This document shows positions 24,005-63,267 of a stretch of 64,000 bases of DNA, piece by piece. Source of the DNA: Neckera pumila (lineage: Eukaryota; Streptophyta; Bryopsida; Hypnales; Neckeraceae). The notes beneath the pieces were generated by a model. That model had not been told where the DNA came from. It saw only the letters and a list, made by a program, of their open reading frames with translations, and did not search any database. The translations under genes and the position numbers were made by a program. The first letter of the stretch is position 1. Each line of letters opens with the position of its first letter. The stretch covers positions 6,414,711-6,478,710 of the forward strand of contig OZ018413.1 in assembly GCA_963969595.1 (NCBI GenBank), in the 5' to 3' direction.

Positions 24005-24091
24005 AGAGGACCAAAAGCAGTAGGAAATATATCCGTAAACTTTCCAGATGAGTTCTTTGAAGAAGGTACAAAGGAACCGGATACAGGAACA

Positions 24092-25428: not shown

Positions 25429-25434
25429 CACTAG

Positions 25435-26516: not shown

Positions 26517-26807
26517 TGTCGCAACCAGAATTTGTGATTTTTCTCCAAGTGTCTGAATAACGGAACGGAAACCGGTAGTTAGCATCCGTATCCGGTTAGA
26601 AGGGTAGAAGAGAACTACGGATAGGCAGTGATAATCCAGTAAGGAGAAAACTGTATCGGTTCCGGTCAGAATGGTAGTATTCAGGAGCGGAATCATACCC
26701 GGAATTCGTCTTGAAACGGATTAGGGATGAACCGGATTAGGGATGGACCGGATCAATGTGGACCGGACCGGAAAAAGGTCATGATGACGTGCCAGGGGTC
26801 CTGAGAG

Positions 26808-26815
26808 TATATAAG
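26808..26815 (+). promoter_or_regulatory. TATA-like box before the LTR ORF
   Basis: TATATAAG followed by GGCTGG, about 275 bp upstream of the ATG at 27089 and about 290 bp into the LTR; a possible promoter for the LTR ORF. Confidence 0.4.
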
Positions 26816-27088
26816 GGCTGGTCGTCCTCATTTTCACTCCTTTACTTCCCTTGAGCTCTGGAGCTGACCTTGAGCGCTTTTTCGCCTCTGTCCATGCCAG
26901 AGCCATTGATGCATGTGCGCTTCCGGTTGGGTGTGTTTGAGAGTGTAGAAAGAGTAAAGAACGTGTGGGTTGCAGGTTTTGTGAGTACCTTCCGGTTGAG
27001 ATCGGACAAGAGAAAGTGAGGAACGGGACGTGCGGCTAGGAGAGTGTGAGGTAGTGACCGGTAAGGGTCCAGTGGTTATTTGGTGTCC

Positions 27089-28741
27089 ATGCCTCAGCTG
27101 CGTAAAGCCAGACCGGGCGCTCCCAGCTCCTCCTCCGATATTAAACTCCGGAAGATAGTTCCGGTCATTCCTATGGAGGAACCGGCCCGGACGGAGTTAG
27201 TGGAGGATTTCAACGCGATGGGATGCCTCGTTCTAATGGATAAACCCTGGGGGTTTCATGAGGAGCGGATGGTGAGGGAGATTAAGTGCAAAGTGTCGAA
27301 CGAGTTCGACAACACTCTCCGTGGCCGCCCGACCGAATGGGAAGAAGAACGGTGGAGGGAAGTTTACAACTTCCAGATGGGAGGTTCCAGTATGGCCGGG
27401 CGGAAGGACGAGTTCATCCATGACAAGTTTCATGGGGAACCAAGTAACAAGGATGGATACGCGGTCGCAGATTGTAAGAACGACCGGCATCGTAACCTCC
27501 TTCAGTTCCTGGTTCCGATCGTCCACCCGGAGAAGCCGACGAGGGTGACGATGACCCTCGGCAACACCATTTTCGGTTCCCTGAGCGGGGAACGGAAGGT
27601 GAATTGGGCCCGGATCTTTTCTGATCTGGTGTCCCAGTTGGTGACAAGGATCGGAAAGAGTAGGGCAACTCCTTTGAGTCCCTACCTTTTCCACCTGTAC
27701 CAGCGGAACCAACTTCTCACTCCTACGGAGGAGAAGACGTGGGGTGTTCAGGAGTTAATCCTGAAGTATGGGGAATCGGGTTCGGATGACGAGCTAGAGG
27801 AGCAGACCGGATCCGAATCCGAGACTGAAGAAGAGGAAGAGGAAGAGCCGTCTCGACAGAGGAAGTGTCAGAAGACGACGCCTCCTCATAAGAGAAGACC
27901 CTCGTCGAACCCCCGGTCCACACCAGAACAGGGACCGGATGTTGAGATGCCGGATCTCGAGGATCCGAACGACCCGTTCAACCAGTTAACGGTTGTCCTG
28001 GCCGGAATCCGGGCGGATTGGGAGGTCAAGCGAAGGACCTTGACCACGATCTCTGAGCTGGTGGGCGCACCGGCCGACAGCGATTTGCCGGGTAAGGTGG
28101 GGCAATTCCTGGCCAATCCGGAAGAGAACCGGAAACAGGAAACGGAGATCCGTCGACTTCAGGAGGAAGTCGATACTTTGAGGGCGGATATGGTCACCCT
28201 CAGGGAAGACAAGGCAGCAGTCCGGGAGATGGCGGAGGCAACCCGGAAGGTGGCTGAGTCGGTGAAGGGCACTCTTAGAGAGTCCGGATCCGCCGCAGTC
28301 AAGGCGGCCTTATTTGACCAAGGGGTGCACGAGGAGAAGAAGGTATCCGGTTCCCGGATAGTTCGGATCCTCAGCGATTTCACCGATCGGGTGGAATCGT
28401 CCTTAGTGGCAGCACGAGAGGCGGCCGACCGGATGGACATCAGCAGTCAGAAGCTAACCGGGTCCTTATTCTCCTGGGAAATCCACCTCTCAAACATTTC
28501 GATGCCGGATTCGTTTCCAGCAGGAGGATCGAATCCGGGTGAGCGCAAGGATCATACACCTGAGTCACGGAAGAGTCACAGGAAACCTGGGACGGGGCAG
28601 CCAATCCAGATAGATTCATCGCTCGGGTCAGATCTTCCGGATCCAGCTGCCGGTGAACGGAGCCGGAACTTGGCGGATGTCTTCAATCAACTGCCCGAGG
28701 AGCCTAAGAGTCCTATGCTGGGCGGGGGAATTGGAGAGTAG
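27089..28741 (+). CDS. LTR-encoded protein, 550 residues, function unknown
   Basis: ATG 27089 (MPQLRKARPG) to TAG 28739-28741, uninterrupted. The first ~220 residues form a domain shared with broken copies at 47259-52795 and 49445-51378. Shared patterns are a DKPW/RRPW/RKPWN block, GYAVADC (GYAMADC, GFAIHDC), LQFLVPIVHPEKPTR, TIFG and PLSPYLFHLY. Next come an acidic run with seven consecutive Glu (~residues 245-255), a predicted coiled coil (~344-395, EIRRLQEEVDTLRADMVTL) and a low-complexity polar tail. No zinc knuckle or catalytic motif is visible. The layout recalls 'putative plant transposon protein' domains near gypsy genes, but that match is uncertain. It may be a Gag-like, structural or regulatory protein of the element. 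An open frame among dead neighbours suggests recent insertion or selection. Confidence 0.8.
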   Translation: MPQLRKARPGAPSSSSDIKLRKIVPVIPMEEPARTELVEDFNAMGCLVLMDKPWGFHEERMVREIKCKVSNEFDNTLRGRPTEWEEERWREVYNFQMGGSSMAGRKDEFIHDKFHGEPSNKDGYAVADCKNDRHRNLLQFLVPIVHPEKPTRVTMTLGNTIFGSLSGERKVNWARIFSDLVSQLVTRIGKSRATPLSPYLFHLYQRNQLLTPTEEKTWGVQELILKYGESGSDDELEEQTGSESETEEEEEEEPSRQRKCQKTTPPHKRRPSSNPRSTPEQGPDVEMPDLEDPNDPFNQLTVVLAGIRADWEVKRRTLTTISELVGAPADSDLPGKVGQFLANPEENRKQETEIRRLQEEVDTLRADMVTLREDKAAVREMAEATRKVAESVKGTLRESGSAAVKAALFDQGVHEEKKVSGSRIVRILSDFTDRVESSLVAAREAADRMDISSQKLTGSLFSWEIHLSNISMPDSFPAGGSNPGERKDHTPESRKSHRKPGTGQPIQIDSSLGSDLPDPAAGERSRNLADVFNQLPEEPKSPMLGGGIGE

Positions 28742-28882
28742 GATAGGATGTTAGTTAGGAATGTAAAATATTTGTAAGTTAGTTAGGACCGGATCGGATG
28801 ACTATCTGGTCTGGTTTGTTAGGATCGGGTCCGGATTTCCAGCGCGGATTTCAAGGTCCCTTTTTGCTTTGTACTCAAGTTG

Positions 28883-28890
28883 TATATAAG
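28883..28890 (+). promoter_or_regulatory. Second TATA-like box, after the ORF
   Basis: TATATAAG followed by TCAGCCCCC, about 140 bp downstream of the ORF stop and 955 bp from the LTR end. If this is the genomic-RNA promoter, the ORF lies in U3 and R-U5 follows. Confidence 0.4.
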
Positions 28891-29845
28891 TCAGCCCCCG
28901 CTTGGGAGCTGGGAGTTCTTTCATCTTATTTTCGCGTACGTCTTCTCTTGGCTGCTTGTTGTGTATCTCTCCCGTGTGCGGCAGGGTCGTGGAGTGAGGA
29001 GTTAGGAAGGCGCGCGCTAATGTAGGTGTGAGTTCTCCCTTTGGCGCGTTTGTTTTTGGTCTTATGTGCAGGTGAGCGGGTTGCATAAGTGTTGGGAGGG
29101 GATTCCAGTTCCTCAGCAGCTCTAGAGTTTAGAATTTTGGGCGAGACAGCCGTTGTTAGGCTAGGCGGATAGGGAGGGATTCCTTAGTCGCGCTAGAACT
29201 CCTGGGTGTGAAATCCGGTTGAGTGTCCGATCTCCTGAGAGATCTCGCCGCCTCATTTGGGCAAACGGAAGAACTTTAGTAGATGTTGGAACGGACGGGT
29301 TCTCTTGTAGCCGCCTAGCTTCACACAGACGGAACGGGACGTCAAGGTCGTTGTAGTATGGAAGGACTGTACGGGGGGTCTTTGTGTGACCGGTAATCTG
29401 GGAAGTTTTTTGGGTTGCTGTGAAGGATCAAACCGGGTCCGGGTTAGCGTAGAGAATTGAAGGAAGAAGAAGTGGGTCTTCAGCCACTATAACTCACGGA
29501 AGGAGCGGCGGGCCCTCAAAAACAAGGGGCGATCCCTCTGATGGTGAAACAGAGGTAAAACCAAACCGGGTAGTAATGTGAGCGGATGAGAGTGATTAGA
29601 CTCAGCCGGAACGTGGACCGGATCGGAGAAGTAAAAAGGGTCTGATTGGAGTTCTGGGTGTTGTTGTGTTTCCGGTTGTGTGTTGGAACCGGAAGAGGAA
29701 ATATAGGTACTGACTTAGCTTAGGGACCAAATAGGGCTATCTACTTCACAGAATCTCGCGGGTTCGATCTTTAGAGTCACTTTGTTATACTTTAAAGTGG
29801 TTTTTGGTAGTATAACGGGGAAATTACTTGCCCTGTGCTGCGACA
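28891..29845 (+). other. Putative R-U5 part of the solo LTR
   Basis: No coding potential recognised. The last ~75 bp (GGAAATTACTT then GTGCTGCGACA) resemble the end of the gypsy 3' LTR at 54066. Confidence 0.5.
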
Positions 29846-30236
29846 CATGACAAGGAGAATACCATACACAACAACTCTTCGATGCATGTGCAATGCAACC
29901 ATGCATGTTCATATAATGGAAACCAAAAGATAGAAACAGAGAGTTCTCCTACAAGAGGCTGTAGTCTCAATATGAATCCTAGTACTGAGAAAGAACATGC
30001 CAACCAAGACTACAGACTAGAATCTTGCACTAGAAGGCCGCCCTGAACACGCTAACGTCTATAAGAACAGAGATGGTGCGACTTGAGACGTCTACAAGTC
30101 CCACGCCACGTCCTGAAGAAGACTGCATGCCCTACAAGAATGCATTGCTTATGAGTGCACCTTTCATCTTACAGATTCTACTGGTGCAAATTGGACAACA
30201 CAAACATTCAGCTTAGCGAAATGTGACCTGACCTGC

Positions 30237-32954
30237 TCATTTCTTTCGTGGTGCCTCTCCTTTCTTTGGCTGCTCTGCTGCCTTAGGAGGGCTTGGCTTC
30301 GACACCTTTGCTGGAGTTCCCTTAGCAGTCTTTGCCGGAGGTGCAAACTTCATTGGTTTTGGAGGAGGGATGCCCCTCGTGACACGGTTGGAACGTGAAG
30401 ACGTGGCTGAAGACGGGGGGTTTGCCACCTACAAGCACGTCATGTGATCCCCACATAGCATCATAACAAATTCTGGTCACCCTGGTAAGAAACATAGAGC
30501 ATGAACGCAAACACAATGACATCAATGCAAACATCATTTTCATTGATGCTGTCTTAGACAGAAGACAATATTCAAAATCCTTACCTCCTGCGAAGTCCGT
30601 GGTTGTGTAGCAGGAACCAGGGACGCTTCTTGACCTGTTACTACATCCTTCACTGGTATGGAATAGGGGTTTGTGGGTTCCTCGATGGACTGAACGACAT
30701 CCTTGTTGACGTCCTGTGCTGCGGCATTCACGACATTCTCGGTGATTATGCTCGGAACTTCCTCCGCAGCTGTCTTCATCAAGTCGTTGTCCACCAAGTA
30801 ATCAACCTCGGCATTAGCATCGTCAACGACGTCAGCAGGGATGGAAACCTGGCCGTCCTCGGTCTGAACATCATGTGTTTCATCGTCGCCGCCGACATCA
30901 GGGGCGACAACTTCCTCACCTGTGTTGTCTTTTGCAGGTGCACCGCGGATGTTGCTCTCGACATTTGCTCGGGCGCTAGGTGCAGAGGACAGTAGCTGAT
31001 GCTATGGAGTATCCTCTCCAAGAGATCGCATCAATTGTTGGATCATGCCTTCCAATCGAGCAAGTTTCTCTCCTATCTCTGAAGTGTTGGCACGCACCTC
31101 TTCAATTTCCGTTGCATAGTCACCCGGTGTCCACTGCGCCTCAGCTTGCTTGCGTGCATACTCGGCCTCTGTTGCATCCTTCACCTCATCTTCGAAAGGT
31201 ATGCGGCCATGCAAGTGGGTCTGTCATAGAAAACCGGTGGTCATACCAATCAATCACACAATGCTTGACGTCTTTTTCTATGCATAAAAAAAGCCCTCTA
31301 AGTACATGACAGCTATATAGTGCATCCAACACGTGACGCACCAGAAAACAACAACATTGACGTTACAGAACAAGAACACTTGGTTACAGTGGACACAGAG
31401 ACGTACATGCCACACTTCAATATGAACCGGACATCCCAGACAACATTGTCATGTTAGGTGCGGAAATCTTTAAGTTTAACGGACATCACAGACGACACTG
31501 AGATGCCTGTGCGAACCTACGCAGTTCTAGCATTCGCTGTTCAACTCACCAATTCACCAATCACTGTCTTCTCAATGGCCCTCATCTGTGCCTCTTTGGA
31601 CCCCTTTCCCTTAGAAATGGCCTGCATCTGGGCTGACTTCTCCTTGAATTTTGCAAAGTTCCTCTTTGCACACAAGTTGTCCCACACATCCGGATCAACC
31701 TCAGCGGGCCTAGGGTGTCCTCCATCAATGAGCTTCATCAGCTGGTGACGGACGTTGATGATTGTCTTTGTCACGTAATGTGGGAACCAGCCTGGATTAA
31801 TCTCCCTTTGCTCACCGCCAACATGCCAGTCTGTAGCAACAACATTGAGTCCAGCACTCAAACAACTGAAGAGAACGCATACATCAGCAATGGCCACTGC
31901 TGTACTATACATTTGACTTTGTGAAAAAATCAAAAGACAATGGAAGGGGTCCAAAAGAACACGAGCATGGTTTAAAAGCATCAGACGTCACGGTAGACAT
32001 GAAGGCGTCTGCTACAACATTAGCAACACAGAAGAACATGCGGCGATACCTTGCAGAATAACAAGGCAATGCCGACCATACCTGCATAGAGACGGTCAAA
32101 GAAGCACTGCTTCTCCTCTAGTGGCTGATCAGCCCATCCATAGTACGGATTTAGTCCTTTTGCAAAGGACTTCACATCTACGATGAGATATGATACTATC
32201 TTCCAGTGGGGATGCCCACGCTTATCCACTTCCACGTACTGCTTCCACAAAATCTCCTTTTTCCCCAAACGCTTTTTACGAGGAGGAGGAGTGGGCATTC
32301 TCTCCATGATGATTGTGTCGCCATCTTCATCCTCGGAGTCCTTATCACTCGACTCAGAGGCACTGCAACAGAAGCACGTGACGTAAGTGTAGGCATGCCG
32401 AAGATGACCTCTCTGTGGACGGAAGAAGGCCTTCGTGGCATCATACAGAATACGATTTGTCTAAGATTGTATTTTGCTAGACGCATGACATCACTGCAGA
32501 CGTTCGTATGCTTGTAATTTTAAACAAACACAAGTATTCAACAATGCTATAGTGGGCAATTACGTCTTGGTGGGGCTCCGACAAGACATTAATGAAAAAC
32601 TTAAGCACGATGGATAAATCAGGATATAATGGGATACCTGAGACTAAAGGATCACCTGTGCTCCGAGTGGTCTGAAGAGTCATCAGTTGGGGCGTCTTCC
32701 TCCTCTTCTACCTCCTCCCGTGGTGCTTGTTTATGACGCTTCCTTGATGGAGGGCTGCTTACAACGGCTTTGCCCTTGCCATTGGAATGCATGTGTACAT
32801 GCCAAGGGTCATTTCCGTATTTGGAACGCAGCTCAATGGCCTGGCGAGTTCTGGCAGCCACATCCCGAGGAGTGTCCTCTTCGTTGCTGCCCCGTCGCCG
32901 TCGAGGCTCCAATGCACGCTTCAGTGGGAGCTTCTTCCGGTTTCCTGGTGCCAT
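30237..32954 (-). pseudogene. TNPA/Ptta-like CACTA protein, five exons, one nonsense codon
   Basis: Minus-strand model: exons 32954-32656, 32362-32082, 31896-31550, 31220-30585, 30428-30237. All introns are GT-AG, phases match at every junction, and the total is 1755 nt (584 codons plus stop). The protein starts MAPGNRKKLPLKRALEPRRR (basic, nuclear-type). Exon 3 carries NPGWFPHYVTKTIINVRHQL and DPDVWDNLCAKRNFAKFKEK, the W..L...FK.KS pattern of plant CACTA ORF1 proteins (Transposase_24/Ptta). Exon 4 has a coiled-coil-like stretch, EIGEKLARLEGMIQQLM, and exon 5 a Lys/Pro-rich tail. TAG at 31004-31002 interrupts exon 4 (CAG to TAG fits). En/Spm TNPA binds subterminal repeats and assists transposition; the same role is inferred here. 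Confidence 0.72.
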
Positions 32955-33559
32955 CTTTGCTTCCGGCTTGGACCAACGCACAAAATCCTCACTTGCTGCC
33001 TGAAAAAGTGAGAACCACAGAAACAGTAGAACCATTAAGCCAAAACTTTGGTGTAAGTGTTGTGACTCATGCCTGGCAGACTTTCATGGTTTCTTGTTCC
33101 AGGGGATTGTGCAGCACAACGTCAACAGAAACATCTAAACGTCTAAGTGAACATCGTAACATCCACATAATCAGTGAAACATCCTCAAAAACATGTCGAC
33201 GTCCGCAGAGATGTGTTTCTTGAGAGGACCGTGTCATTCGGTACAGTGTTGTAACGACCTCGGACGGCAATGTCAAAATGAAAAGATGTCACTTAGCTGT
33301 CCGCTGTGCCTGAAGAGTAGACGTCATTGAGTGCATGACCGTTTGTTCCCTTTGACATGTAGGCTGCAAGTTGAAGACGGAAACATCGCAAATTTCCTCG
33401 GATTCACTGACCAACAACATTATCGACAAGAATCACCAAAAAAAAAGGGACAGTGACATCGGGGAGAGAGGAGACCGCAGACCAATGGAGACCGCCGTCT
33501 GTATTCAGGGAGCGCTTGAGGGACTTACAGCCATGAGGTGCACCTCGGGGGGCTGAAGG
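32955..33559. other. CACTA interior upstream of the TNPA-like gene
   Basis: Non-coding with GACGTC/AACATC-type words and no supported ORF. It should include the TNPA-like promoter, but no core element could be chosen. Confidence 0.4.
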
Positions 33560-34207
33560 TCAGCTTTTCTTCAACTTCAGAACTCTGTATGACACCGTGA
33601 TGCTCACAATGATGTCAATGAAGACATTGACAGGAATCCACAAAAAAGAAAAAAGGAACGACGACAGCGGTTTGGCAGGAGACCCATTATCTGTTTGGAG
33701 ACCATCCTTTGTGTTCATTTGCCGCGCCTCACGACCTTCAAACCACGGCGTGCATCTCGGGGGAGTGACGGTCAGCTTCTCTTTTGTTTCAACAATCTGT
33801 AAAACATCATGATGCTCACAGTGATGTCAACAACGACACCAACATAAATCCTAAAAATGTAAAAAGGGACGATAACAGCAAGGACGCGGGAGACCCCAGG
33901 GCGTTGGAGACCGCCCTCTGTGTTCATTTGACCTGGCTCACGACCTCCAAACCACCGCGTGTACCTCAGGGGCCTTGGGGGAATGATGGTCCCCTTTTCT
34001 TCTGTTTCAGAACTCTGTATAAGACACGGTGATGCTCACAGCGATGTCAGCGAAGACACCGGCAAGAATGTCATAAAAAATTTACAAAACGGGAAGATGA
34101 TAGCGGGGAGGTAGGAGACCCCACGGTGTCGGAAAACGCACTCTATGTTCATTTCGCACGGCTCACAACCCCGAAACCACCGCTTCACCTCGGGGGAGTG
34201 ACGGTCC
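33560..34207 (+). repeat. About 215-bp tandem repeats, left block
   Basis: Three successive units share TTTCAGAACTCTGTAT, GATGCTCACA (33599, 33811, 34031), GATGTCA, GACAGC, GGAGACC, TGTTCATTT and CGGGGGAGTGACGGTC. Spacing is about 212-220 bp. The array resumes after the LTR insertion at 35777-36075. Confidence 0.8.
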
Positions 34208-35776
34208 TGTGAGTGAATTTCACCATGAGGTAAAACCCATCCACAAACTTGGCCGAAAAGGAGTGTGTGGACTCTAATCTAAATGCCTCCAAGCAATGGA
34301 TTTCCCAAATTTTTTCTTTAGTGAATTTTTGATAAATCAAGCCTAAGTGAAAAAAGGGCAGCACCTCAAAATCATCCCATTATGTGCCTTAACACTCCCA
34401 ATTCATCTTCATACATGTTTTGAAAGGACAAGTAAACTTCCTAGGTCAAAATCACCTTAAAATTGCCTAATTTAGGCCCTAAGTGAACTAAATTGCACCC
34501 TAAAAACTAATCACAGCACAATTCACTCACACCAAGTGCTTAATCTAGACTCCCTTTGGGCAATGCTTCCACATGTGCCCTAAAGACCCTAACAAGTAGA
34601 ATTCACTAATGATGCATTCTTCTTAAACATCCAAATCATACAAGCCCATGAGAAATGTACTCCAAACATGCAAGACCCAATCTGAATTGTAATTATCATT
34701 ACATTTTTATTCATTTGGGACCACAAGAACCATAGTAAACACACACAACTCACAGCCGATAGGGTAGCCAACCTCTTCCTACTAATTTGTCCGCCCTATC
34801 TTCATCCTGGCTCCAAATTGAGCGAGCCTTATCTCGTTGGAAAGCTGACTTCTCCATCTTCCTTGCGCCAAAAATTCAGCTCATTCCGCTTGGCCACACT
34901 TCTACAATCGTCCGTCAAGTTGCAGCTCTGAAATTCCTGCGGCAGTAGGCCTTCCGCCACAAAATCGACCACCACTGCCTCATCTGTGCTCCAAATCGGT
35001 CGAGTTGAGTCTTGTTGAAAAGCTAGCTTGAATACGCACCATTCCACCAATTTTCAGCTCCATCCGCTACTCCATGCTCTCGCGATAGCTCGCCAAAGTA
35101 GCTGCTTCCACTTGCAAGGGCAACGGACTTTCTTTCCCAACACTTTTTGCATCTGACCTCCACAATCCTCACTTTTCACCCACTTTCTACCCCACAAGGT
35201 GAAAACCTACTCGACAAATTGACTATCATCCTAACCTACCTCCTTGCAATCATTGTTCTCCTATGTATTGTCCACTTTTCACCTCTTCACACATTCTCCC
35301 CCAAAACAAAACAAGAGAGAGAGTGAGCACCAAACCCTAATTCGACTAATACCCCAACTAACTAACTAACTAACACTCCTAATCACTTTCATCTACACTA
35401 ATTTACTGAAATTCCATTAAATCACTACTTATTGCCTAAATTAGAGTTTCTACCACTATGTTAGTGTTCTCATAGTAATTTTAAGTTTGATCACTTCTTT
35501 TGTGCTTTTCCATATTTCTTCGTTTTTATTGGTTTTCAATTTATGTTTAGATCCATTTTCAACTTCTCACCATTGTTTTGGATTCCTTTTTGTATCTTTT
35601 ATCTTTTATATATTTTAGGGTTGCAATTTTGATCTAGTTTCTCTTCCTATGCACTAAAAGCCTTTTACTAATGGTTATAGTTTAATCTAATGTACTAACA
35701 CTTTTGAACTTAAAAACTCATTCATAGTTTTTATATTTTCAATTATCTGAAGGGTGAACCAATATAGTGGTTCACA
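34208..35776. mobile_element. Solo-LTR-like insertion (TSD GGTCC)
   Basis: The 1569-bp segment starts TGTGAGTGAATTTC and ends GTGGTTCACA, with GGTCC on both sides (34203-34207 and 35777-35781). It splits the 215-bp tandem repeat array. TG...CA ends and a 5-bp duplication fit an LTR. There is no ORF of note, no second LTR and no similarity to the ORF-bearing LTRs, so it belongs to a different family. Confidence 0.75.
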
Positions 35777-36087
35777 GGTCCGCTTCCCTTCTGTTTCAGA
35801 ACTCTGCATAAGGCAGCAGCGCGATGCTCACAATGATGTCAGCGAAGACACTGGTAAGAATGTCATTAAAAAATATAAGAAGGGACAACGACAGCGGGGA
35901 GGCAGGAGACCCCAGAGCGTTGGAGAACGCACTCTGTGTTCATTTGGCACGGCGCACGACATGCAAACCACCGCGTGCACCTTGGGGGAGTGACGGTCAA
36001 CTTCCCTTCTGTGTCAAAACTCTATGTAAGATACCGTGATGCTCACAATGATGTCAACGGAGACACGTTGACATCAGTGCCCAAAAC
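35777..36087 (+). repeat. About 215-bp tandem repeats, right block
   Basis: Continuation of the 33560-34207 array. GATGCTCACA recurs at 35823 and 36038, with GGAGACCCC, TGTTCATTT and GGGGGAGTGACGGTCA in the same order. Confidence 0.8.
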
Positions 36088-37185
36088 GTGACGGCAAAGG
36101 ACGCAAAGGAGTCACTTCGTTCGACAACTACAATTGAAAACCTGCGCTACCCGAATTGCTTGAGCTGCTCAATAGAGCGTACGAGCCCGGATTCCTGTCA
36201 CCGGAAAGAAAGTATCGACTGCAGTGGCTGTTGTGTAAGCAACACTGAGAATCTGACAGCTGCCTCCTTACCAAATATTTCTGCAGAGGAGAGGAGTTTG
36301 TATCTGTGGACAACAGAAGCAGACAAAGAAATGCACAAACAATGCAAAATCATGGATGCAGGAGGTGGAGCATCCTCCTGTCACAGGTGGGGTTTGTGTG
36401 GCACCGTACCTTTCTAAACAGAAGCTGCAGCTGCGGCAATTCGCAAATTCCGCTCCCTCCTGGTACCCCGTGGCCGCGCTCCTTGGTTTTGTAGGTCGAA
36501 GGTGCCTTACTCCTTGTCGATAGCTGCTGCCAGCCTGCAAACTAAATTGTCTCACCAATCACAAACTCACGCTCTTAGAAAATCGTAATGTTCTCGCCAT
36601 CTCTCGCGTTTTCAATTGCAGCTACGGAGCTCTAAAACACAATGTATGCAACACCGCAAACTGCAAAGAGGAAGAGGTGAAGGTAGCGCTGCGGTGTTTG
36701 TAGTGACACCCACGGAGAGGGGCAAATGGAAAACACGGATGAACTTAGATGAAGAGAGAGCACCACGACGATGCCACCACGGCTGCCAATCAATAGTTCA
36801 ATTAAACGCTTGATGTCCGCGCAGCTAAGCGATTGAGGCTTGTGTGTCAGGAATTCAAAGTTTCGGCGGTGAGCTCGTCAGCAGCGCATAAAGGAGTGCG
36901 CGGCGACCACCGATTCCAAGCCTCAAAAATTTCTGCAATTCCAGACATCCATGACTTGCAGCAGTGCCGCGGGCCCAAATCTCCCCTCCCAAGAGACGTG
37001 TAAGCATTGGAAAACCGAACCTGACCTGCGACTCAGGTGTCGCGAGCGCCAATACCAAAGCGGAGCGGGTGCTTTCAATAACCTATTGAGTAGAGCTGAG
37101 CGGGTGCTACCAATTCGAAAACAACAAAGCATGCACAAACAGAAAAGGTACATGACGGAGGCGCGATGCACTGCAATTGTCTTAC
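36088..37185. other. CACTA interior, possible further captured gene sequence
   Basis: Less AT-rich than the flanks. Minus-strand stretches look exon-like (SSYRQGVRHLRPTKPRSAAT at ~36520-36460; GLVRSIEQLKQFG near 36150-36190) but frames are broken and no product is recognisable. It may contain downstream exons of the gene whose first exon is at 37186-37467. Confidence 0.35.
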
Positions 37186-37467
37186 CTTCTCAAATTTTAG
37201 GTCTTTTTGCACAGGAGTGCCAATGTCGCTGACAAAGAGAGCATGGCTTCTGTTCAGGCGGCTACTTTGGCGGAGACTGCTCTCCCCTCCATTCAGTACA
37301 GTAGCTGCGTCCATTGCTGAGGTGAATGACACAGCCATAATCCCCTCCACAAAGTTGTCAAAAACGCTCAAAGCTCCGTGAGTGATCCATGGTTTGCTCT
37401 CAGGTAGTTCCTTGAATTCAGCCACTGAAACACTGTTGACATTAGGAGATGGCGATGGAAGTGGCAT
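37186..37467 (-). pseudogene. Probable captured host-gene first exon inside the CACTA
   Basis: ATG 37467-37465 opens 94 codons (MPLPSPSPNVNSVSVAEFKE ... QKDLKFEK) ending at a strong donor, GAGAAG|GTAAGACAA. Composition is balanced and protein-like (SKPWITHGALSVFDNFVEGI), unlike nearby transposon genes. No family was recognised. The upstream side (37468-37600) resembles a 5' leader. Position inside a CACTA element, separate from its own genes, suggests transduplication of a host gene. It may instead be an extra element-encoded ORF. Confidence 0.45.
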
Positions 37468-43700: not shown

Positions 43701-45196
43701 TTGGTAGAGCAATTATTTCGGTGCGGCCCTATGCATTGTAGGTGGATGTATCTTATTGAAAGGTATATGAAGACACTAAAGGACTACGTCCGCACACTTG
43801 CACATCCGGAAGGCAGCATAGCGGAGGGATATCGAACCAAAGACACACTTAGCTTTTGCACGGAATACATGAGAGAATATGGCGGAACAGCGCAGCGGGT
43901 TTGGAATGTACAAGAAGATCCAATTATGAACGACGAGGTCATCCGTGGCAGTGTACCACAACAACGTGCATTGTCTGACGAAGTGCGTTCATATGCGCAC
44001 GCCTTTGTCATTGACAATGCTCCATGCTTGGAAGCTTGGCACGAGTGAGTGTCCTGAACACCTCATCTAATGTTCTCTTGGACGTCACATTGTGCTTCAT
44101 ATATATAGGTCTAATATTAAACTAAACGCGTAGCCCCTGAATGACGTCCCGGTCTTCAGTGCATGAACATGTCTCTATACATGTCCTGCTAGACACATTG
44201 TGTATTTGTAGACGTTGTGAAGCCTTCAGCTTTGTAGATAAGCGAAACACTTTCCCAAAGCCCCCCTAGACATAGCTTGAATCCACTATGTGCATGCCAC
44301 ATACTGCAACCGCTTTTGCTGTCCAGTCCTCTAACAAATGTCAAATGCATTCTACATGTAGGGAGTACACTATGGCAAAGTCCCAACGGTGGCAGGAGCG
44401 TGAAGTATTTCGAGTAACATGAAGACGTTCACACCTGGGAAGAGCTGTTCGTTATCCACACGAACTCCGTGAATTTCCAATTTTTTTACAGTGGTTCACA
44501 TCGGCAGTAAAGAAAGCTGAACGTTCAGGACGTCTATTGAAAGATGATGTCAAACAATATGCACAGCCCCCAAAGCGGAATGCGACATTGCATTGGGTCA
44601 TGTATTGTCACGGTATGCACTTGCACGTCCGAAGTTCAGAAGGTGGACTTGTCACCTGTGACTCAGGTGTGGTGGCTTGTTTCACCCGCCAATTGCGTTG
44701 GGGTCTAGTGAACGGGAGGCCAGTAGAAACCACACAAGAATATGTGGGGTATATAGAGGAAATTTTGGTTTGGGATTATTGAAACCACTGTGTGACTGTG
44801 TTGCTTTGTGATTGGGTGAAGGGAACACGGGACGCACGCAGTCCAAGCATTCAACGAGATCGGTACGACTTTAGCTTGGCAAACTTCAATCACATGGATG
44901 GGAAGGTACACACTGACTCGTTTGCCTTTCCGTTGCACTACCAATAAGTATTTTTTTCCGACGACCCACATCGACACGGATGGAAAGTGGTATGCTGAAT
45001 AGAGGTTAGGGGCAGACACAGGACATTACCTTGTATCCAACCGACCCCCAACATGGTTGAATTGCGAAACGATAGTGACTTTGATGGACTCCAACTTGTT
45101 GAACGTGCTATGGATCCAGTGCGTCATCCCATACCCGATGGAGGGGACTACATTGTTGTAGTAGGCAATGGCACAATCTTGGAGGATGAAGCATAG
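40724..45196 (+). pseudogene. TNP2-like CACTA transposase gene, four exon blocks, seven in-frame stops
   Basis: Exon blocks are 40724-42442, 42787-43134, 43491-44044 and 44362-45196, with GT-AG introns and matching phases. In order: transposase-associated zinc region (RYPCPCRNCHGGRRKAI), CPNGC...CPKC, FPLIPRLRRMF, the TNP2/Transposase_21 core (STWPVLILIYNFEPW, GKHSPCSKNIDVFLRPL, WTISDFPAFG, KGCPCCG), ELPYWQ spliced to YLLERHILDVMHCEKN, the DUF4218 block (PVHLVEQLFRCGPMHCRWMY, HPEGSIAEGY), then DUF4216-like sequence (CDSGVVACF, DDPHRHGWKVV) to TAG 45194. Stops are at 41207, 41636, 41693, 44420, 44780, 44945 and 44996, with no frameshift seen. The first exon's start is unresolved (no ATG). TNP2 is the catalytic transposase of CACTA elements; this copy should be inactive. 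Confidence 0.92.
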
Positions 45197-46551
45197 CGCA
45201 CCATTCATATCGGTTCGCTAGAACCTCCAGACTTCACCAAAGACGTGGAGTATATAGGAAGTTGTCCCCCTCTATGTCTTCTGGGACGTCTTTGTGCATG
45301 CAACGCAGTCAGGGGCTGACAGAAGTACTAGTTGTCAACATTGGCTTTGGCACGCAGCAAACAATATGCCAATGCACAGGAGCGTGCATATGAAATCCTT
45401 CAGCATCTTTTCCTCACTTGTCCTATGTGTGCTCCATACTACACCTTGTCATTAGGATGCTGAGTGCAATGAAATGAATTGTTTGTTCTGAAGGAAAGAG
45501 CAATACGTTGTCTTTTGATCTTCTAAACCACCATGTTCTTTTTCTGTTGCATATATACATCTGTAGTCAAAGATGGAGCAGGGAATATGAAACCACCTTG
45601 TAACCTTTGCATTGAATATGTATTTTTCTAATAATTGTAGAACCAATTGGCACACATGGCAACACTCAATAGTGGATGCTGTTACCATATACAATATGCC
45701 ATTTAAAATACATCATAATTCACAAATACGTCAAGTGGCTTCAAAAGCCACTTGTGTGAGTTTCTGGAGGGGAAAAGGCAGGCTCTGTATACAACTAGAG
45801 TGGTAGAGGAAAGACAAACTATATGGGACATTGAAAATTTTGGAGAAGTTTATGTGGACCAGCATAGAGATGTCCAACAGGATGTTTTTTGCATCTTCCG
45901 GAGTCCACTCTGATGACGTCTCCATAGACGCTATATCGACAGTGACTACGTTTCCTAAAGCATCTCTAGTCTACAGAAACATCCAACAAAACATCTCAAC
46001 GTTCTACAAGATGTCTTTATTGACGTCTCAACATCTACATAGAAACCTTCAATATAAGTGTAGAAACCGCAAAAATACAGCACTGATATGTTGACGTGGC
46101 ATGCCACATCAGCATAATTTTATGCCACGTCAGCTATTTTACACATGGCATGCCATGTGTAATGCCATGTCATCTTTTTTTCCCCCAAAGCTGCCCGGAG
46201 GCTGCCCGACCCCTTTCTTTTTAACCTCGGTCAGATTTTTACCCCCAAAAAAAGTAATTTTTATAAATTTATCCTCCGTGAATTTTTTTCCCCAGAGCTG
46301 ACGTGGCAGTCCATGTTTTTGCAGACGGTTCAATGAGTCTTTAAAAATGTCATCGAAAGTCCACATGTCCATGGCAACACCAACTTGTTTTCATTCAAAT
46401 TTGTTGCAGTCATCTGGAACATCCTCGGAAATCTCCTGAAATCGCAATTCCTCTCTATAACATCTTGATGTCTCCGCGGACATAGTATGTTCGGCCTTGG
46501 ACATGGCATGTTTTACCTGTGACATCCAAAAAATACGGGTTTCTTCTAGTG
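45197..46551. other. CACTA right subterminal region
   Basis: Non-coding. From ~45890 to the end it is rich in GACGTC/AACATC/GATGTC words mirroring the left end. ORFs such as 45831-46094 are not supported. Confidence 0.55.
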
Positions 46552-46615
46552 GAAGAAGGTGATCTCCAGTACTAATGGGATCGGTTACTACTGATCCGGT
46601 TAGGTATTCACATAT

Positions 46616-46628
46616 AAGAATGGGGTGA
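46616..46628 (+). promoter_or_regulatory. Polypurine tract before the gypsy 3' LTR
   Basis: AAGAATGGGGTGA immediately precedes TGTGGGAGC, the LTR start, 41 bp after the integrase stop. This is the usual plus-strand primer position. Confidence 0.6.
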
Positions 46629-48337
46629 TGTGGGAGCCCGAAATGCCAAATTATTACTTTGTAATAGAATTAGGTTAAAGACATTTTCTTTCCATATTTT
46701 TTTTGTTGTTTTATAGGTTAATGTACATAGTTTAGTCGATTTTTAGATTAGCAGCCATTGGATCTCTTAAAAGAGATAAAATGGTTAAGACGGATTTTAA
46801 TTGTTCCTGTCTTGAACCAGAAACCAAAAACCTATGTGGGATCACAACCAAGATTCCAGGGATTTGGGAAGAGTCAAGCCGGTATCGGAAATGGAAACCA
46901 GGAGCCAACAGTCACTAATGGGAAAACTAGAGAGCCGTTGAACGAAAATCATTTCCCGGTGTTGACAAAAACGGCCAGTTCCAACAGTGGGGAAACCGGA
47001 TGGTCAGAAGAGAGGAAGGGGTCAAGTAGAAGCATCCGCATTCTATCTTCACATTCTGGTGTTTCCTGATTGTGAGTGAATGTTTGCAAGACAGTGTGGC
47101 GCTGAGAGCTTGGAGGAGTGCAAGTTTTGAGATTCCGGTCCCGGTTAAGCGGTTGTAAGACTGATTGGCTTTGTGAGAAAGAACAACAATAGAGCTCAAG
47201 TGGTTAGGGCAGGAAGAATTGAGAGGTTGTTAGTCAGTCCAAGTAGTTGCTCAGAGCCATGGTGAAGGCAGAGGCGAGTAAAGAGTCGCCTTCACCCAAA
47301 CTCCGGTCAGTGGTACCCGAACTGCCGAAGAATGTCAAGGAGAAGGCGCTCTTGCGGGAGGACCTGAAAGGGCTGGGATGCGATGGTTTCATGCGGAGGC
47401 CGTGGAACCTGAAGTACGAGTTAATGGTTGGGGAGCTGCTCACGAAGTAGTCAAGCAAGTGGCATCACACGATCCGGGCGTAGCCAATCAGATGGACTCC
47501 GGAGATGTGGAGTGAGGTGTACAATTTTTTCAAGGAAGGGGAAGGAGTAGTTGGACAGCAGCACGAGTTTGAGAGTAGTAAGTTTTGCAACCCTGTCCAC
47601 CCCAAGGATGGATATGCTATGGCAGATTGCACAAACTTAGAAGAATGTTGGAGTTCTTAGTTCCAATTTTGAATCCGGAGCGTCCTATCAGGGCCACCAT
47701 TACAATAGCAAAGACGATTTTTGGAGCGCTGACCAAAAGGAAGAAAGTGAGTTGGGGTTTATTATTGAAGGAAGTTGTGGGCAAAATGGTCTCAGCTGTA
47801 GGCAAGTCCAGACCTTCTGGTTTATCTCCCTTTCTCTTCCACCTCTATGAGCACAATGAGTTATTGAGAGGGAAGGAAGTAACCAAGTACAAGTCTGCGG
47901 ATGTGATGTTACAGCATGACATTAGTCCAAAATCGAAAGAGCAGAAAGAGGCATCAATAGAGGAGTCAGAATCAGAAGAGGAACCGGAGGAACTCCAAAA
48001 GAAAGGCAAGGAAGTAGCTGGAGAGGGGACTAGTAAGGATCCGATTTGGGCAAAGTCAACTGACCCTCTTCGGGTGATTATAAGTGAACTGAAGGGCATC
48101 TGAGAAAAAATGATGAGTGATAAGGAGGTGACCCAGAAGCCAAAAAATCGGATAGCTAGCCTAACCGGTCAAGTAAAGGATCTAAAGAAAGAGATAGGGA
48201 AAAAGTCTGAGAGTGAGGTTAAACAGTTCTTGGCTAAAACCTTAGACACCCTTAACCGGATCTGGAAGTTTGTTGGGATTTCGGGCAATGTAGTTAACAA
48301 AGCCAAACTTTTTGAGGCTGGAGTTCTCAAGGAGGGA

Positions 48338-51300
48338 TGTCGTACGCGCAATCTAGGCGTAAGTATCTTTAGCCACAATGTTGTGCTAAAATGACACGAG
48401 TTATCGTCCCAGGGAATTCCAAGATGATGCTGCACGTTTCAAGTTTTTCCGGATTCTCTTTTGTCTTCAATCCAATCACCTATTCACTCATTTCCAGAAC
48501 TTTTAACTATCCGGAATTCAATCCGAATCCGGTTCTACCCGGAATCCGGTTTCCACTTCCAAATCAAGATGGTTTCTTTCACCTCTATTTTACCCTCAAA
48601 GGGTCCGCTTTGATCTTTCAAGGGGTAGGGACTTCACCACTCTGGTTCTCACACTCACTAAACTTGACAAACACAAACAAACACCCAAGTATTTAAAGGA
48701 ATTGTAACAAAGAAAGAAGATCTAGATCCTCACAACTTCCTAGACACCCGATCCGGAAAGTAGGTCACTCAGGACTCAATCCACTCCTTACTACAACGAC
48801 TAATCACAGGGTTCCGGAACCTATCGAGGGTTGTTTGTTAAGTGCTAGACCGTTCCGAGGTTGGCAGACCTTTCGGGAGAGTGGCGACTTCCTCTGGGCG
48901 GGCGCTTACCTCGGCAAGGGTTGACAGCCAAACTCGCTTCCACTACTCAATCAACTGGATCACCGTTACAATAGTTTAAAGATACTATGCACTTCCACTC
49001 AGTCAAGAATCTAACACTGTCTCAAATGTACCTTTTAAATGGAACCGACTACCCGAGATCCGGATTCCTCCTCACCCGTCTTCCCTCACACTCTAGTACA
49101 ATCACAAGCATTTAGACCAACACTTGAACACAAAGATGGAAATCCGAAAGCTCACTCAGCACTTAGATTAAAGGAAAGTAATGGAATACAAATGAAAATC
49201 TACTAGGAGGGAATCCCAGCACAACAAGCTTGCCAGCCCTTAAAAACCCACAAAAAGTCAACATCTAAAAGCCAAAAAGCACCCCGGAAATCCAGGCAGC
49301 CAATCAAAGAACACCCCGAGACACCCGGAAAATCCACTGCCGGCTCATTCTAAAAATAAATCCGAAACCAGGGTCCCAAGCGCGGAAAACCCGTTTCAGA
49401 ACTAGAGTTCAAAACTTAATCAAAAATCAAAACATCCTAACTAACTACTTCTTCCGCGGCTTCTTCATACTGCTGCCGCTTTGCGTTGCTCCTGTCGTCT
49501 TCGTGGGGGTGTTCCGGACACTTGCCCGGGTCTGGATTGGGCGTCGAATCAACGGAGTTGTCATGACTTCAGTTTCTTTGTCATCGAACTAGAGGAACTC
49601 CCTATCCGACTCCATCTCAATGGGTTGCCCTAATAAAGCTCCAACTGGATCCTTGTCATCGCCTTCTTCCTCTTCCTTGGATGCTCCTTCCATGTGGGTG
49701 AAACCTTTCGGATGTGTCCGGGCCGGATTCTCAATCACAGGCATCCGGTCCATCAAATCCGTCCGAACTGGAGGAGCCATGACTTTGGGTAATACGGTCC
49801 CCTCTGGTGCCCTTGCCATGCGCGTGGGGAACGTGATAAGGACCGTCTGCACCAAAGCAGTAGGAACAACCGGAACATCCGGACCTTCCTTAGCAACCTC
49901 CGCGGTTAACCTCTCCCTTCTTCGTGACGGCCCTGCCTGACTTGCAACTTGAGCCATAATGTCCTTCAGCAAGGCTTGAAGACCTTGCTCCGATATGGGA
50001 GTCCTTCCGGCGGGGATTGGTTTGGTCGGAGTCTTCTACAACTGCACACTCAGAACTTCCGGAAATCGGGTGAAGTCCATGGCTGCTGGATCGAGAAACT
50101 CCAACAGCTTCCTCATCTCTGCCAACACATTCTCCATCTTGATCTCATAATCCACCAAGATCTTGAGGATCATGCTTCCGGTCACTACGCCCTCTTGAAC
50201 TAACTTATCATTGAAGAGCCGGGCGCGTGTGATTTGATCCGTGGGCTGTTCCACCAACTCCGTCAGTGCCTCACTACATTCATTGCATCCGACTCCCTCT
50301 TGGATGCAAACTTCAGGGCTTCCTCCGCAACACCCAAACTGGTCTTGAGTTGGATCTTCTCCTCCTCCAGTTTTTGGATCTGCTCATCCTTCCTAATGAG
50401 CAGGGTTGGATCCGGATGTTTTCTAATCTTGCCCATAATCTCGTCCGGTTCCACCTTCAATTTGTCCAATACCGAGCATACGAAGTCAGCCAAGTCCTCG
50501 TACCATTTCCGGGCCTCCTGGAACCACTCTACTCCGGAATTGAACAACTCGTTCCCCCCTAGATCTGCAAAGGTCCGGCCCAATTCCTCCGTTTCCAGAA
50601 CTTGCTGCTTCCCACTTGAGTTTGGATCGGTCGACTTCCGCCGCGAACTTTCCGGCCTCTCTGTCCTTGGCGACATCACTTTTGAAACTGCTTCCTTGGC
50701 TTGCTTCTCCAAATCCGGAGACAGGCCGTCCTTTAGCATCTCCTCGGCGACCTTGTAGTCCTTGATTTCTTGCTCACTCACGATCCCATTGTGGTAGTAA
50801 AGGTGGAAGAGGTAGGTGCTGATCGGGTTGGATTTGGCCTTCTGCATGCCGTTCGCTAGTTTCTACACCACGGCCTTCAATATTCTCCCTCAGTGTATTG
50901 GCCTGTCCTCCATCACTCCAAAAATCGTGTTGCCCAATGTGCTGGTGAGCCGGGTCGGCTTCTCCGGATACAGGATCAAAACTAGGAACTCCAGCACTTG
51001 TCTCTGCCTCAGGTCAATGCAATCATGAATCGCAAAACCTTCCTTCGGATGGGGTAGATTACGGAACTTCTCTTGAATATAACGGTCATTCCTTGAGGCA
51101 TAACCGGAACCCGCCTTCCGGAATGAGTAGGCTTCCATCCACATCTGCTCAGTCCACTTTGCCGACTTCCCTCTCTCCGTCAACTCAAACTAATTTGGAG
51201 CTCCAGTCACGACTTCGTGGATCATCGCCTCGTCCTTCAGATTCCACGGCTTGCGTAACAACCTTGCACATCCCATACTGTCCAGATCGCCCTCCAAAAG

Positions 51301-52109
51301 CATCCGTGCCTTCAGATCCGCAGGTACGACCGGATTGAGCAACTTGGCTGTAACTGCCGGTCTCTGAGGTTCCTCCATCCACACCGACAGAATCCTACTA
51401 ATTTGGTGCAATCGGCACCCTCCTCTCCTTCTCTCCCTATCCGATCCTAACTCACCACTTTCACTCAACTAACGCGCGCTCCAAACCTGCAAGAACACAC
51501 GCATCCTCGAGCGGAAGAAAGAGGGAGAAGAAATGAAGAAGAACGGGCTTAAGTAGCTGGCCAGTGATTGACACTCGTTGGGACGGCCCATAAATGCGCC
51601 ACCTTTTGCAAACAAAACCCTAGTTCCTAGGTCGGAACCTAGGTCGTAGGTTTCCAGAATCCGGATTACTTTTCGGATTACGGATCCCGTTAAGATCCGT
51701 TCCTTACCCATTTTACAGTTTTTGCTAGGCTGGAACTTTCCTACTTTCCTGATTCGGCTAACTGTTCCGGATTGCTACTTCAGTATACGAAAATTTTGAA
51801 AAATCTCACTAAATGCCATATTTAACTACTTTTGGACTTTAGAAAGTCCAGAATTCATAATGATCATCGGGAGATCTTGGGTTGGGGCATCGGGGGATCT
51901 ATCCAAAACATTGGAAGATCTAAATTTTCATGGAGGAATCAATTCAAAACATCAATAGATCTATACAAACATCGGAAGATCTCTTGATGTTTTGGATAGA
52001 GATGCTTAGTCCAGAATTCATTGAATAGTCCAGAAGTAGTTAAATACATCATCTAATCTACTCCTAAATCAATCTGGAATTCCGGGTTTTGACATTTTGT
52101 GCTCCCACA
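48338..52109 (-). mobile_element. Solo LTR with ORF, inserted in the gypsy 3' LTR (TSD AGGGA)
   Basis: On the minus strand it runs from TGTGGGAGC (52109) to GCGTACGACA (48338). AGGGA flanks both sides (48333-48337 and 52110-52114). The 3772-bp unit has no pol genes and no paired LTR. Its start is closely related to the start of the LTR it landed in, so this is a self-insertion within one family. Removing it restores the host LTR ORF in frame. Confidence 0.85.
49445..51378 (-). pseudogene. LTR-encoded protein in the nested solo LTR, broken
   Basis: ATG 51378 (MEEPQRPAVTAKL) to TAG 49447-49445 (tail SMKKPRKK). Blocks shared with the intact copy are MGCARLLRKPWN, GFAIHDC, LEFLVLILYPEKPTR, NTIFG and STYLFHLY. 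A coiled-coil-like segment, RKDEQIQKLEEEKIQLKTSL, follows, then a proline/basic C-terminus. Interruptions are TAG at 51192-51190, TAG at 50865-50863, a frameshift near 50260, another interruption near 50040 and TAG at 49591-49589. It is the third member of this ORF family in the window. Confidence 0.75.
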
Positions 52110-54066
52110 AGGGATCTCAAATGGGATCCAAGGTTGTTTTTGTCTTGGTGTCCTATCATGAGGAGGTGGAGCGTACATTATTTGAGTTGAGAGAAGTCAT
52201 AGAGAATGCAGGCTTCCACTCGGAACCGGAACCGGTGAAGGCAAAAGAAAAGGTGAAGGAAGAAACTTTGAGCAAGGCAATGCCATCAAAGGGTTTAGCT
52301 GACCGGAAGTCAAAGGGAGAACCGAAAGAGAAGACCACACCAATCAACCGCTCCAAATTGAAGATTGACACGGCAACCGGAAAAGGGTTTTCACCTAGAT
52401 CCCAGACTTGCAGTCAGAGTAAGTTTGCAAAACCGGATCAGGGCACTCCACAGAGCACCCTTTTTGGTTGGTCAGACAAGCCAGCAGCAAAACGATGGAA
52501 ATCAACATCAAAGAGGGGTAGGAAGGCATCACCCACAATTGAGATTGAACCTGAAGAGGGTGAGTCGCCAAAGACTACGGAGAAGGAGGAGAGCCAGTCC
52601 GAATCAAGAGAAGAATCCAAGGAAGGAGAAGAAGAATCTGAACTAGAAACGAAACCTACGCGTGAAAGGGGGAAAGGTAAGCCTCCAACTCTCCTAAAGG
52701 GGAAAGCTTCTAAGTCTACTGGTGGTAGACAGCAGCCAACAAGGAAGGGAATGATCAAGACTACACCAATGCCATCCAAGCAGCAAAAGAAGTAGGTAGA
52801 AAGTTTTTAGAAGTTGAGTTAGGGAGTTAGTGGAACTCCAATTTTTGGTAGGTGGAAAGTAAAATTAGAGTCCAATTAAATTTACTTTAGGAAAGTAAAA
52901 GATAGGTGGAGTTCAATTAAGTAGAAGAAAGTTAAAGTTTTAGAAAGTAGCTTCTAGTTGCTTTCCGGTTGCATGCAACTGGACCGCTGGATCCAGTTTT
53001 CTTGGATCTGAGATCCACTTTTGTGGAAAGGGCCGACTGTTAGGAAGCCAACACTACTAGTTAGGATTCTGAGATTGGGGGAATGACGCGTGTCATTCTC
53101 TGGTCTATAGTTAGGATTCTCATGGGGCCTTTTTGGGTTTCCCTTGGTTTGGTATTTAGGGGGTTGAAGTTAGTTTCAATCCCAGGCTTGATAGGATAGT
53201 TTTATCTTACACTTGTGTTCTTTTTCATTTTCCATTGCAAAGTATTCTGATTTCCACATTCTAAGTGTTGGTCTGAAAAGTCTTGATGCTAGGTTGGTAT
53301 GCCGGTAATGCTAGAACCATTACTTTATGCGGATAGCTATGTTTGTAGATTTTGGAAGAAGATGAGTGCCCCCAGATGTTTCTTGTATCCAATTTTCAAG
53401 AATAGCGTCTTTGTCTGAGAGCTTGGGTCGGGAGAATCTGTCATTGTAGTATTTTGAGGATGGTAGGGGTTTCCTGAGTGACCTTCTGATCCAGATTAAG
53501 CTTCTGGGTCAGTTGAGAGGAGAAACTGAAGTCCTATTTCTTTTTGTCTTTTGTTATTTTTCTTCTTTTTAGTGAAACTTCTGTCATTCTAAACATTGAA
53601 GGGTAGGAATTCACGCAGCCTTCTTTAATTGCAATATGCAGAACCCTCTAATATACAGGCTAAACTTCTAACCGGTTACTAAAATTAAAGATCCAGAAGC
53701 GAAAATAAGAAGAGGCACAAGGTAACGACACTCCTTCCGGTCCTGATTTTGAGTCCTAGGATCAGAGTTGTACTAGAGAGAGAGAGAGGGCGGTACATTG
53801 TTGAGACACTACCTTGTTGTTGTTGAGCAGATTCGGACTAGAGTGGGATAGTCCAACCGGATGGAAAGCAATCACTTAGGAATATTAAGCTTTCTGTTGT
53901 AGAATCCGATTTGCTTGTGGTTGTTGTGACTTCTGCATCCGGTTCCGGTCATCACTAGAGAAGTCCAAACTAGATATCTGAGGAAATAATACCCGAGTCA
54001 TCCTAAAGATGTTTTTCACACGTTAGAACGTCTATTGGAGGAAAATTACTTTCTTGTGCTACAACA

Positions 54067-63259: not shown

Positions 63260-63267
63260 CCTTAAAG

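Follow-up and report, generated by a model that had tools for sequence, protein, structure and literature searches.

A conserved protein-coding gene inside the long terminal repeats of a Ty3/gypsy retrotransposon family of Neckera pumila

The window analyzed here, a stretch of 64,000 nucleotides from the genome of the moss Neckera pumila (assembly GCA_963969595.1, contig OZ018413.1; C6:6414711-6478710 in our genome survey), contains three units, LTR1, LTR2 and LTR3, that have the appearance of long terminal repeats (LTRs) of retrotransposons, and each of these units includes a gene, intact or broken, of one protein family (Table 1). A preceding sequence-only reading of the window had proposed that these are LTRs of 3.3-3.8 kb with a conserved protein-coding gene; this proposal is borne out by a full-length copy found elsewhere in the genome, in which each of the two LTRs contains the gene between its TG and CA ends.

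Table 1. Features of the LTR units and their neighbourhood in the window (CpG o/e, observed-to-expected CpG ratio; aa, amino acids)
Feature	Position	Strand	Remarks
LTR1, solo LTR	26517..29845	+	3329 bp, TGTCGCA...TGCGACA, CpG o/e 0.93
16-bp tandem repeat TGAACCGGATTAGGGA in LTR1	26712..26753	+	2.6 copies, includes CCGG word (TRF)
TATATAAG in LTR1, first	26808..26815	+	281 bp 5' of ATG; possible promoter of the gene
Intact gene in LTR1	27089..28741	+	550 aa; ATG aligns with starts of relatives
Conserved N-terminal domain, about residues 13-232	27122..27781	+	modelled alone: pLDDT 88, pTM 0.85
TATATAAG in LTR1, second	28883..28890	+	142 bp 3' of stop codon; possible genomic-RNA promoter
LTR3, first part	46629..48337	+	begins TGTGGGAG; CpG o/e 0.51
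Broken gene of LTR3, first part	47261..48337	+	two stops, one frameshift
LTR2, solo unit within the gene of LTR3	48338..52109	-	3772 bp, CpG o/e 0.79
Broken gene of LTR2	49443..51394	-	stops and frameshift
LTR3, second part, past nested LTR2	52110..54066	+	finishes ...GCTACAACA
Gene of LTR3 after nested LTR2	52112..52795	+	frame same as before insertion
gypsy pol remnant	21500..25434	+	protease-like region, reverse transcriptase, RNase H, integrase (Pfam)
CACTA tnp2	about 41.66-42.32 kb		upstream of LTR3 (Pfam)
DUF4218	about 43.57-43.88 kb		upstream of LTR3 (Pfam)
PiggyBac-like DDE_Tnp_1_7 transposase	56696-57474		two frames; downstream of LTR3 (Pfam)

LTR units of the window and a full-length copy

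LTR1 and LTR2 are solo units with exact 5-bp target duplications on both sides, CATGA at 26512-26516 and 29846-29850 for LTR1 and AGGGA at 48333-48337 and 52110-52114 for LTR2. The termini of LTR2 are TGTGGGAG...GTACGACA, and the starts and ends of all three units are mutually related. The duplications, the TG...CA ends and the relatedness of the termini had all been pointed out in the sequence-only reading and are confirmed here. The insertion of LTR2 splits the gene of LTR3, and the flanking sequences, ISGNVVNKAKLFEAGVLKEG before and GSQMGSKVVFVLVSYHEEVE after the insertion, are in step with KAELFDEKVGIGSKPSGTRIAMILTDYSEKLE of the relatives (P0017); given this continuity and the 5-bp duplication, LTR2 was therefore inserted as a single piece. 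The CpG o/e ratios of the three units follow an order that agrees with the nesting of LTR2 in LTR3 and with the intact gene of LTR1, and LTR3 is, to judge from CpG decay, apparently the oldest of the three. A structure with two short internal LTRs in each unit, which the sequence-only reading had raised for the solo elements, is ruled out: a scan of 26-55 kb detected no direct repeats of at least 60 nt within or between the units, and self-blastn of the whole window (E <= 1e-5) gave no match within or between them among the matches listed, which were those outside the leucine-rich repeat (LRR) array and a 98-bp array. Thus, LTR1, LTR2 and LTR3 are not pairs of short LTRs.

When the genome assembly (339.5 Mb, 18 contigs) was searched with the LTR1 protein, 79 matches were scored out of 2794 first-look candidates, with 90-100% identity, and 16 of the 79 contain no stop. 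The 30 best copies were fetched for LTR comparison. In most of these loci LTR1 aligned over its full length (bases 1-3329); 24 are solo LTRs with an exact 5-bp duplication, and in two others (L015 and L030) the duplication matches at four of the five bases. Such a large proportion of copies that stand alone with duplications would be expected if the units were mobile pieces in their own right, with TG...CA ends by chance. This explanation, however, is extremely improbable in general and is refuted for the LTR1 family by a full-length copy (C2:40270913-40283455, around L014) that is flanked by GCACT duplications on both sides and in which LTRs of 3321 bp each (98.2% identical, with 59 mismatches and no gap) form direct repeats around gag-pol. 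The 5' LTR of this copy is followed by TACAAAAATC and then by TGGCGCCGCTGCCGG, a primer-site-like sequence which we take to resemble the tRNA-Asp type; next come 5901 bp of internal sequence and then a purine tract before the 3' LTR. The internal part encodes, in one frame, Retrotrans_gag, a zinc knuckle, reverse transcriptase (RT), RNase H, and the zinc-binding and core domains of integrase (Pfam), a domain order that assigns the copy to the Ty3/gypsy type. The gene is found inside both LTRs (C2:40271466-40273118 and C2:40280688-40282340), with one stop in each, and the gag-pol frame holds stops as well. Also at odds with stand-alone pieces, the L027 unit directly follows pol, its 5' side having a 248-bp LTR-like piece only, and L014 and L027 share an 894-bp left flank (94.6% identity) that finishes in the purine tract GATGAGGG(A/G)GGGG...TAA directly before TG. 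The LTR1 family is a Ty3/gypsy family with a gene inside its LTRs, a conclusion that we regard as practically certain; LTR2 and LTR3, by homology, probably represent further families of gene-carrying gypsy LTRs.

Several other loci were considered as possible full-length copies. Two same-strand pairs on C1 (~17.7 and ~20.6 kb apart) had no pol match between the LTRs in the fetched stretches and are not counted as such; downstream of L013, a candidate 5' LTR with TGG 3 nt past its end, pol (38-47% identity) is located on the opposite strand. At L002, L012, L019 and L029, diverged pieces of the LTR1 family (about 82-96% identity) adjoin younger copies, which indicates that the copies cluster or nest.

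The gypsy pol remnant of the window, 64-67% protein-identical to the pol of the full-length copy (tblastn), lies 1.1 kb upstream of LTR1. L038 (C9:2937487-2947486) and L042 contain further gypsy pol sequences, whose identity with the remnant is 38-78%. LTR1 could, in principle, be the 3' LTR of this remnant, the CATGA duplication having arisen by chance: the two are on the same strand, and the string ATGGGGGTGA (26502-26511), which precedes the duplication of LTR1, is nearly identical to ATGGGGTGA (46620-46628), which precedes LTR3. This likeness could stem from chance, from insertion preference or from a purine-tract relic. We give the remnant origin hardly any credence, given that self-blastn detects no second copy of LTR1 in the window, that CCGG is absent from 25572-26516 but occurs roughly four times per 500 bp in pol, and that the purine tract of the LTR1 family differs from the left flank of LTR1.

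The sequence-only reading had taken LTR3 for the 3' LTR of a gypsy element, directly after a polypurine tract. This label is unproven because LTR3 has no target duplication (the flanks are GGTGA and CTCCT) and no adjoining gypsy genes; its neighbours are the CACTA transposon genes tnp2 and DUF4218 (together spanning 41657-43880) and the PiggyBac-like transposase, and the gypsy pol of the window is at 21.5-25.4 kb. The purine tract itself, AAGAATGGGGTGA, is weak. Pfam searches (E <= 0.01) yielded nothing further on either strand of 29846-39000 or on the minus strand of 39001-46628 and of 54067-64000. In the window, the consensus 12-base primer site occurs at chance level (5 found, 4.4 expected), and no tRNA was found.

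The gene and its protein

The gene of LTR1 is contained in an open frame of 558 codons (27065-28741), compared to 263 codons for the longest open frame over 500 base shuffles of LTR1. An open reading frame (ORF) family of ~550 codons had been reported for all three units in the sequence-only reading; the family is indeed common to them, but the gene is intact in LTR1 only. In tblastn comparisons with the LTR1 protein, the gene of LTR2 shows 38% identity (E 6e-51, 51333-50605), and that of LTR3 matches in two pieces, with 32% and 40% identity (E 3e-49). The identity at the three codon positions is 0.56/0.66/0.35 between LTR1 and LTR2 (205 codons), and 0.55/0.60/0.39 (121 codons) and 0.51/0.59/0.29 (200 codons) between LTR1 and LTR3; the C-terminal piece of LTR2 (0.28/0.48/0.30, 69 codons) shows no clear codon-position pattern. 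Within the LTR1 family, the comparison covered the 28 genome copies whose match spans 1653 nt (2 of the 30 fetched copies were dropped for length): the mean proportions of nonsynonymous (pN) and synonymous (pS) differences are 0.022 and 0.109, with a ratio of 0.20, and pN is lower than pS in all 378 of 378 pairs. This ratio is a lower bound because the copies were picked by protein similarity, which reduces pN. Among all 30 copies, the pairwise difference is 0.030 at the first codon position, 0.026 at the second and 0.076 at the third, and 0.048 outside the gene. With the caveat of sampling, selection on the protein is well supported.

Apart from the conserved N-terminal domain, the LTR1 protein contains an acidic stretch and a long predicted coiled coil. 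Searches that covered 5.8 billion proteins yielded 218 relatives at E <= 0.01 (7993 candidates scored); with the conserved part alone, 151 of 368 candidates matched at E <= 10, and a profile search gave 374 relatives out of 7992 scored; the 120 best relatives listed per search are all unnamed or hypothetical proteins without a Pfam domain. No relatives were detected in viral_contigs (two of eight scans) or genome_contigs (one scan). All matches in Pfam, in PDB sequences and in a viral fold search were weak, and most of them involved coiled coils or acidic stretches.

CCGG words in the LTRs and pol

A large fraction of the CG dinucleotides in the units and in the pol remnant is found within CCGG: 53 of 208 in LTR1, 38 of 167 in LTR2, 24 of 85 in LTR3 and 31 of 94 in pol, compared to 47 of 1100 in the remaining window (one-sided Fisher p 2e-19, 8e-14, 5e-12 and 1e-16, respectively), and CCGG ranks first or second among the over-represented 4-mers in each of the four (first-order expectation). 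In the full-length copy, CCGG accounts for 50 of 211 CG in the 5' LTR, 66 of 350 in the internal part and 46 of 213 in the 3' LTR, versus 4 of 64 in the 4.4 kb flanking it; the genome background is 51 of 799 (ten 3-kb samples, nine contig positions, seven or more contigs). The observed numbers were also compared part by part with dinucleotide shuffles. LTR1 contains 11 CCGG vs 2.4 expected in the 5' part, 31 vs 13.7 in the gene, and 11 vs 4.4 in the 3' part, where a count of 12 came up in one or more of the 100 shuffles; LTR2 contains 24 vs 8.5 in the gene and 11 vs 3.3 in the 3' part, with no enrichment in the 5' part (3 vs 2.0); the parts of LTR3 contain 5 vs 1.0, 7 vs 2.5, 5 vs 1.3 and 7 vs 1.3, and the pol remnant 31 vs 6.7. 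The density of the words begins at the edge of LTR1. The leading 7-mers are GACCGGA (10) in LTR1, ATCCGGA (13) and TCCGGAA (12) in LTR2, and AACCGGA (9) in LTR3. The CCGG array in the LTRs and pol is real.

The enrichment might be independent of the LTR gene and reflect a sequence habit of the gypsy lineage, such as its mutation history, its codon habits or the sites of another host factor. This would account for the enrichment of gag-pol as well; furthermore, CCGG is about twofold better kept than other CG even in ordinary sequence, and the codon phases of CCGG are uneven (12, 7 and 12 in the LTR1 gene, 12, 3 and 9 in the RT frame of pol, and 3, 0 and 4 in the integrase frame). However, the words also occur in the noncoding parts of the LTRs and in all three phases, so that a codon effect alone is rejected, and no enrichment is seen in the CACTA region of the window (8 vs 5.2) or in the kinase-LRR region (8 vs 6.3). 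Taken together, a mere lineage habit seems to us rather unlikely.

In LTR3 and pol, CG sites outside CCGG are decayed to the same degree as elsewhere in the window (ratio to TG+CA 0.14 and 0.12, respectively, vs 0.14; p 1.0 and 0.22), whereas the ratio of CCGG to CTGG+CCAG is 0.96 and 0.94 vs 0.29 (p 3e-4 and 7e-5). The high ratio for CCGG may be due to denser words at the time of insertion, to later protection, or to both.

The window also contains an ORF for a protein kinase (6437-7600, Pkinase E 5e-27) and, after it, a tandem array of 72-bp units (8333-14067, ~80 copies) coding for leucine-rich repeats (LRR_14 E 2e-96); an isolated LRR fragment is located at 16299-16507. The kinase, the leucine-rich repeats and the CACTA genes point to a green plant or a streptophyte alga. 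Self-complementary stretches at 16580-17118 and 17632-17868 (inverted self-matches of 71% and 85%), a 200-bp-scale repeat in four direct copies (33422-36066) and a tandem array of a 97/98-bp unit with diverged copies (38493-39665) were observed as well.

A possible anti-silencing function

The mouse mammary tumour virus (MMTV) carries a superantigen gene, sag, in its LTR. As in that case, the conserved ORF lies wholly inside both LTRs and hence at both ends of the element; the two proteins are not known to be related, and MMTV is a vertebrate betaretrovirus whereas the family described here is of the plant gypsy type and has very many solo copies.

A further parallel is with VANC21 and VANC6 of the Arabidopsis VANDAL transposons, which counteract DNA methylation (PMC5735166; PMC10398659); the word of VANC21, YAGTATTAY, which lacks CG, is reported there to reside mainly in noncoding parts (PMC5735166). 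In both systems, a transposon-encoded protein is accompanied by a dense short word that varies between related elements and often occurs in tandem repeats. A possible fold match of one domain of the LTR protein to the VANC21 structure 9lnj (identified as VANC21 by its PDB title) is suggestive. However, VANDAL is a Mutator-like (MULE) DNA transposon, whereas the LTR gene is carried by a Ty3/gypsy LTR; the CCGG words contain CG and are also present in coding parts; and anti-silencing has been shown for VANC but is proposed by analogy for the LTR protein. DUF1985 and DUF287 were not detected by hmmscan in 10 proteins of the family (E <= 10) or, for 24 members (E <= 1), among the best 25 of 40 families. 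The open PubMed Central (PMC) subset yielded no paper, from 2023 onward, that combines VANC21 with a crystal structure.

Under the mechanism that we propose, TATATAAG at 26808 would start the transcript of the gene itself, and the genomic RNA would start from TATATAAG at 28883; the gene would therefore belong to the unique 3' region (U3), being located between the LTR start and the probable promoter of the genomic RNA. TATAWA does not occur in LTR2 or LTR3, and AATAAA does not occur in any of the three units. Any LTR, whether solo or within a full-length copy, could then produce the protein, which would bind the CCGG-centred words (ACCGGA, TCCGGA) of its own family and, in the manner of VANC, oppose host DNA methylation at these words. 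Because the gene resides in the LTR, each insertion has two copies of it, and a solo LTR left by recombination keeps the gene, its start region and the target words; the use of this arrangement by solo LTRs is putative. That the product of the LTR gene binds CCGG words and counters methylation as VANC does appears quite possible to us, if somewhat short of probable. Anti-silencing specifically through the CCGG words, drawn by analogy, is a tentative suggestion. The boldest version, in which the LTR acts against silencing as a self-contained cassette that comprises the gene, its promoter and a dense array of CG-containing binding words of its own product, we consider speculative and on balance unlikely.

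When the retention of CCGG and of other CG sites was compared in pairs for the LTR1 family, the effect was only small: CG was kept in 92.8% of the CCGG cells and 89.5% of the others, with medians of 0.931 and 0.929 and a site-level p of 0.006, and 22 of the 29 copies had the higher value for CCGG. The product could instead be an accessory factor with no part in anti-silencing, such as a Tat-like activator of its own promoter or a helper of packaging, nuclear entry or integration. The acidic stretch and the long predicted coiled coil fit an activator or assembly factor, and other accessory proteins of plant retrotransposons are nuclear or predicted to bind DNA and have no known role (PMC7264820; PMC11963269). 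Such a factor alone, however, leaves the enrichment of CG-centred words in the coding DNA of gag-pol and in the LTR unexplained, and we treat it as a possibility that falls short of likely.

The additional ORFs of plant LTR retrotransposons lie in the internal region (PMC7264820; PMC11963269; PMC11728184; PMC12844716; PMC12859917), and a role of such ORFs in the modulation of methylation has been suggested (PMC12844716). The 5' additional ORF of Tekay in sunflower and cereals (PMC11728184) resembles the LTR gene in encoding a conserved extra protein of a high-copy plant gypsy element, with a suspected anti-silencing role; however, it is internal, 5' of gag-pol, and its protein is mostly disordered, whereas the LTR gene encodes a protein with a domain that is folded in the model. 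The antisense ORFs of Retand and Grande, also additional ORFs of plant gypsy elements, are placed between pol and the 3' LTR and contain a TRP28 domain with predicted DNA binding (PMC11963269; PMC7264820); TRP28 (PF04195) was not matched by the LTR protein family in the hmmscan searches described above. In contrast to the internal accessory genes of plant LTR retrotransposons (reviewed in PMC7264820), the gene described here resides in the LTR. The suggestion in the sequence-only reading that the layout may be undescribed is compatible with the open PMC subset, in which titles and the beginnings of abstracts revealed no plant retrotransposon with a gene in its LTR, but this subset cannot prove absence.

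A solo LTR of this kind is a possible gene copy instead of a dead scar, and the scale is considerable, with 2794 first-look candidate places (79 scored) in a single genome of 339.5 Mb. If the protein counters methylation at CCGG, anti-silencing by transposon-encoded proteins would not be confined to MULE DNA transposons but would include retrotransposons, and wherever a word with CG survives in decaying copies, it would be a readable footprint of that protection. If the LTR indeed functions as a cassette, every insertion or solo LTR would supply the protector and a site to be protected, and the family could be defended in trans by hundreds of solo LTRs. Every copy, lone repeats included, may then retain a gene through which the family resists silencing by the host.

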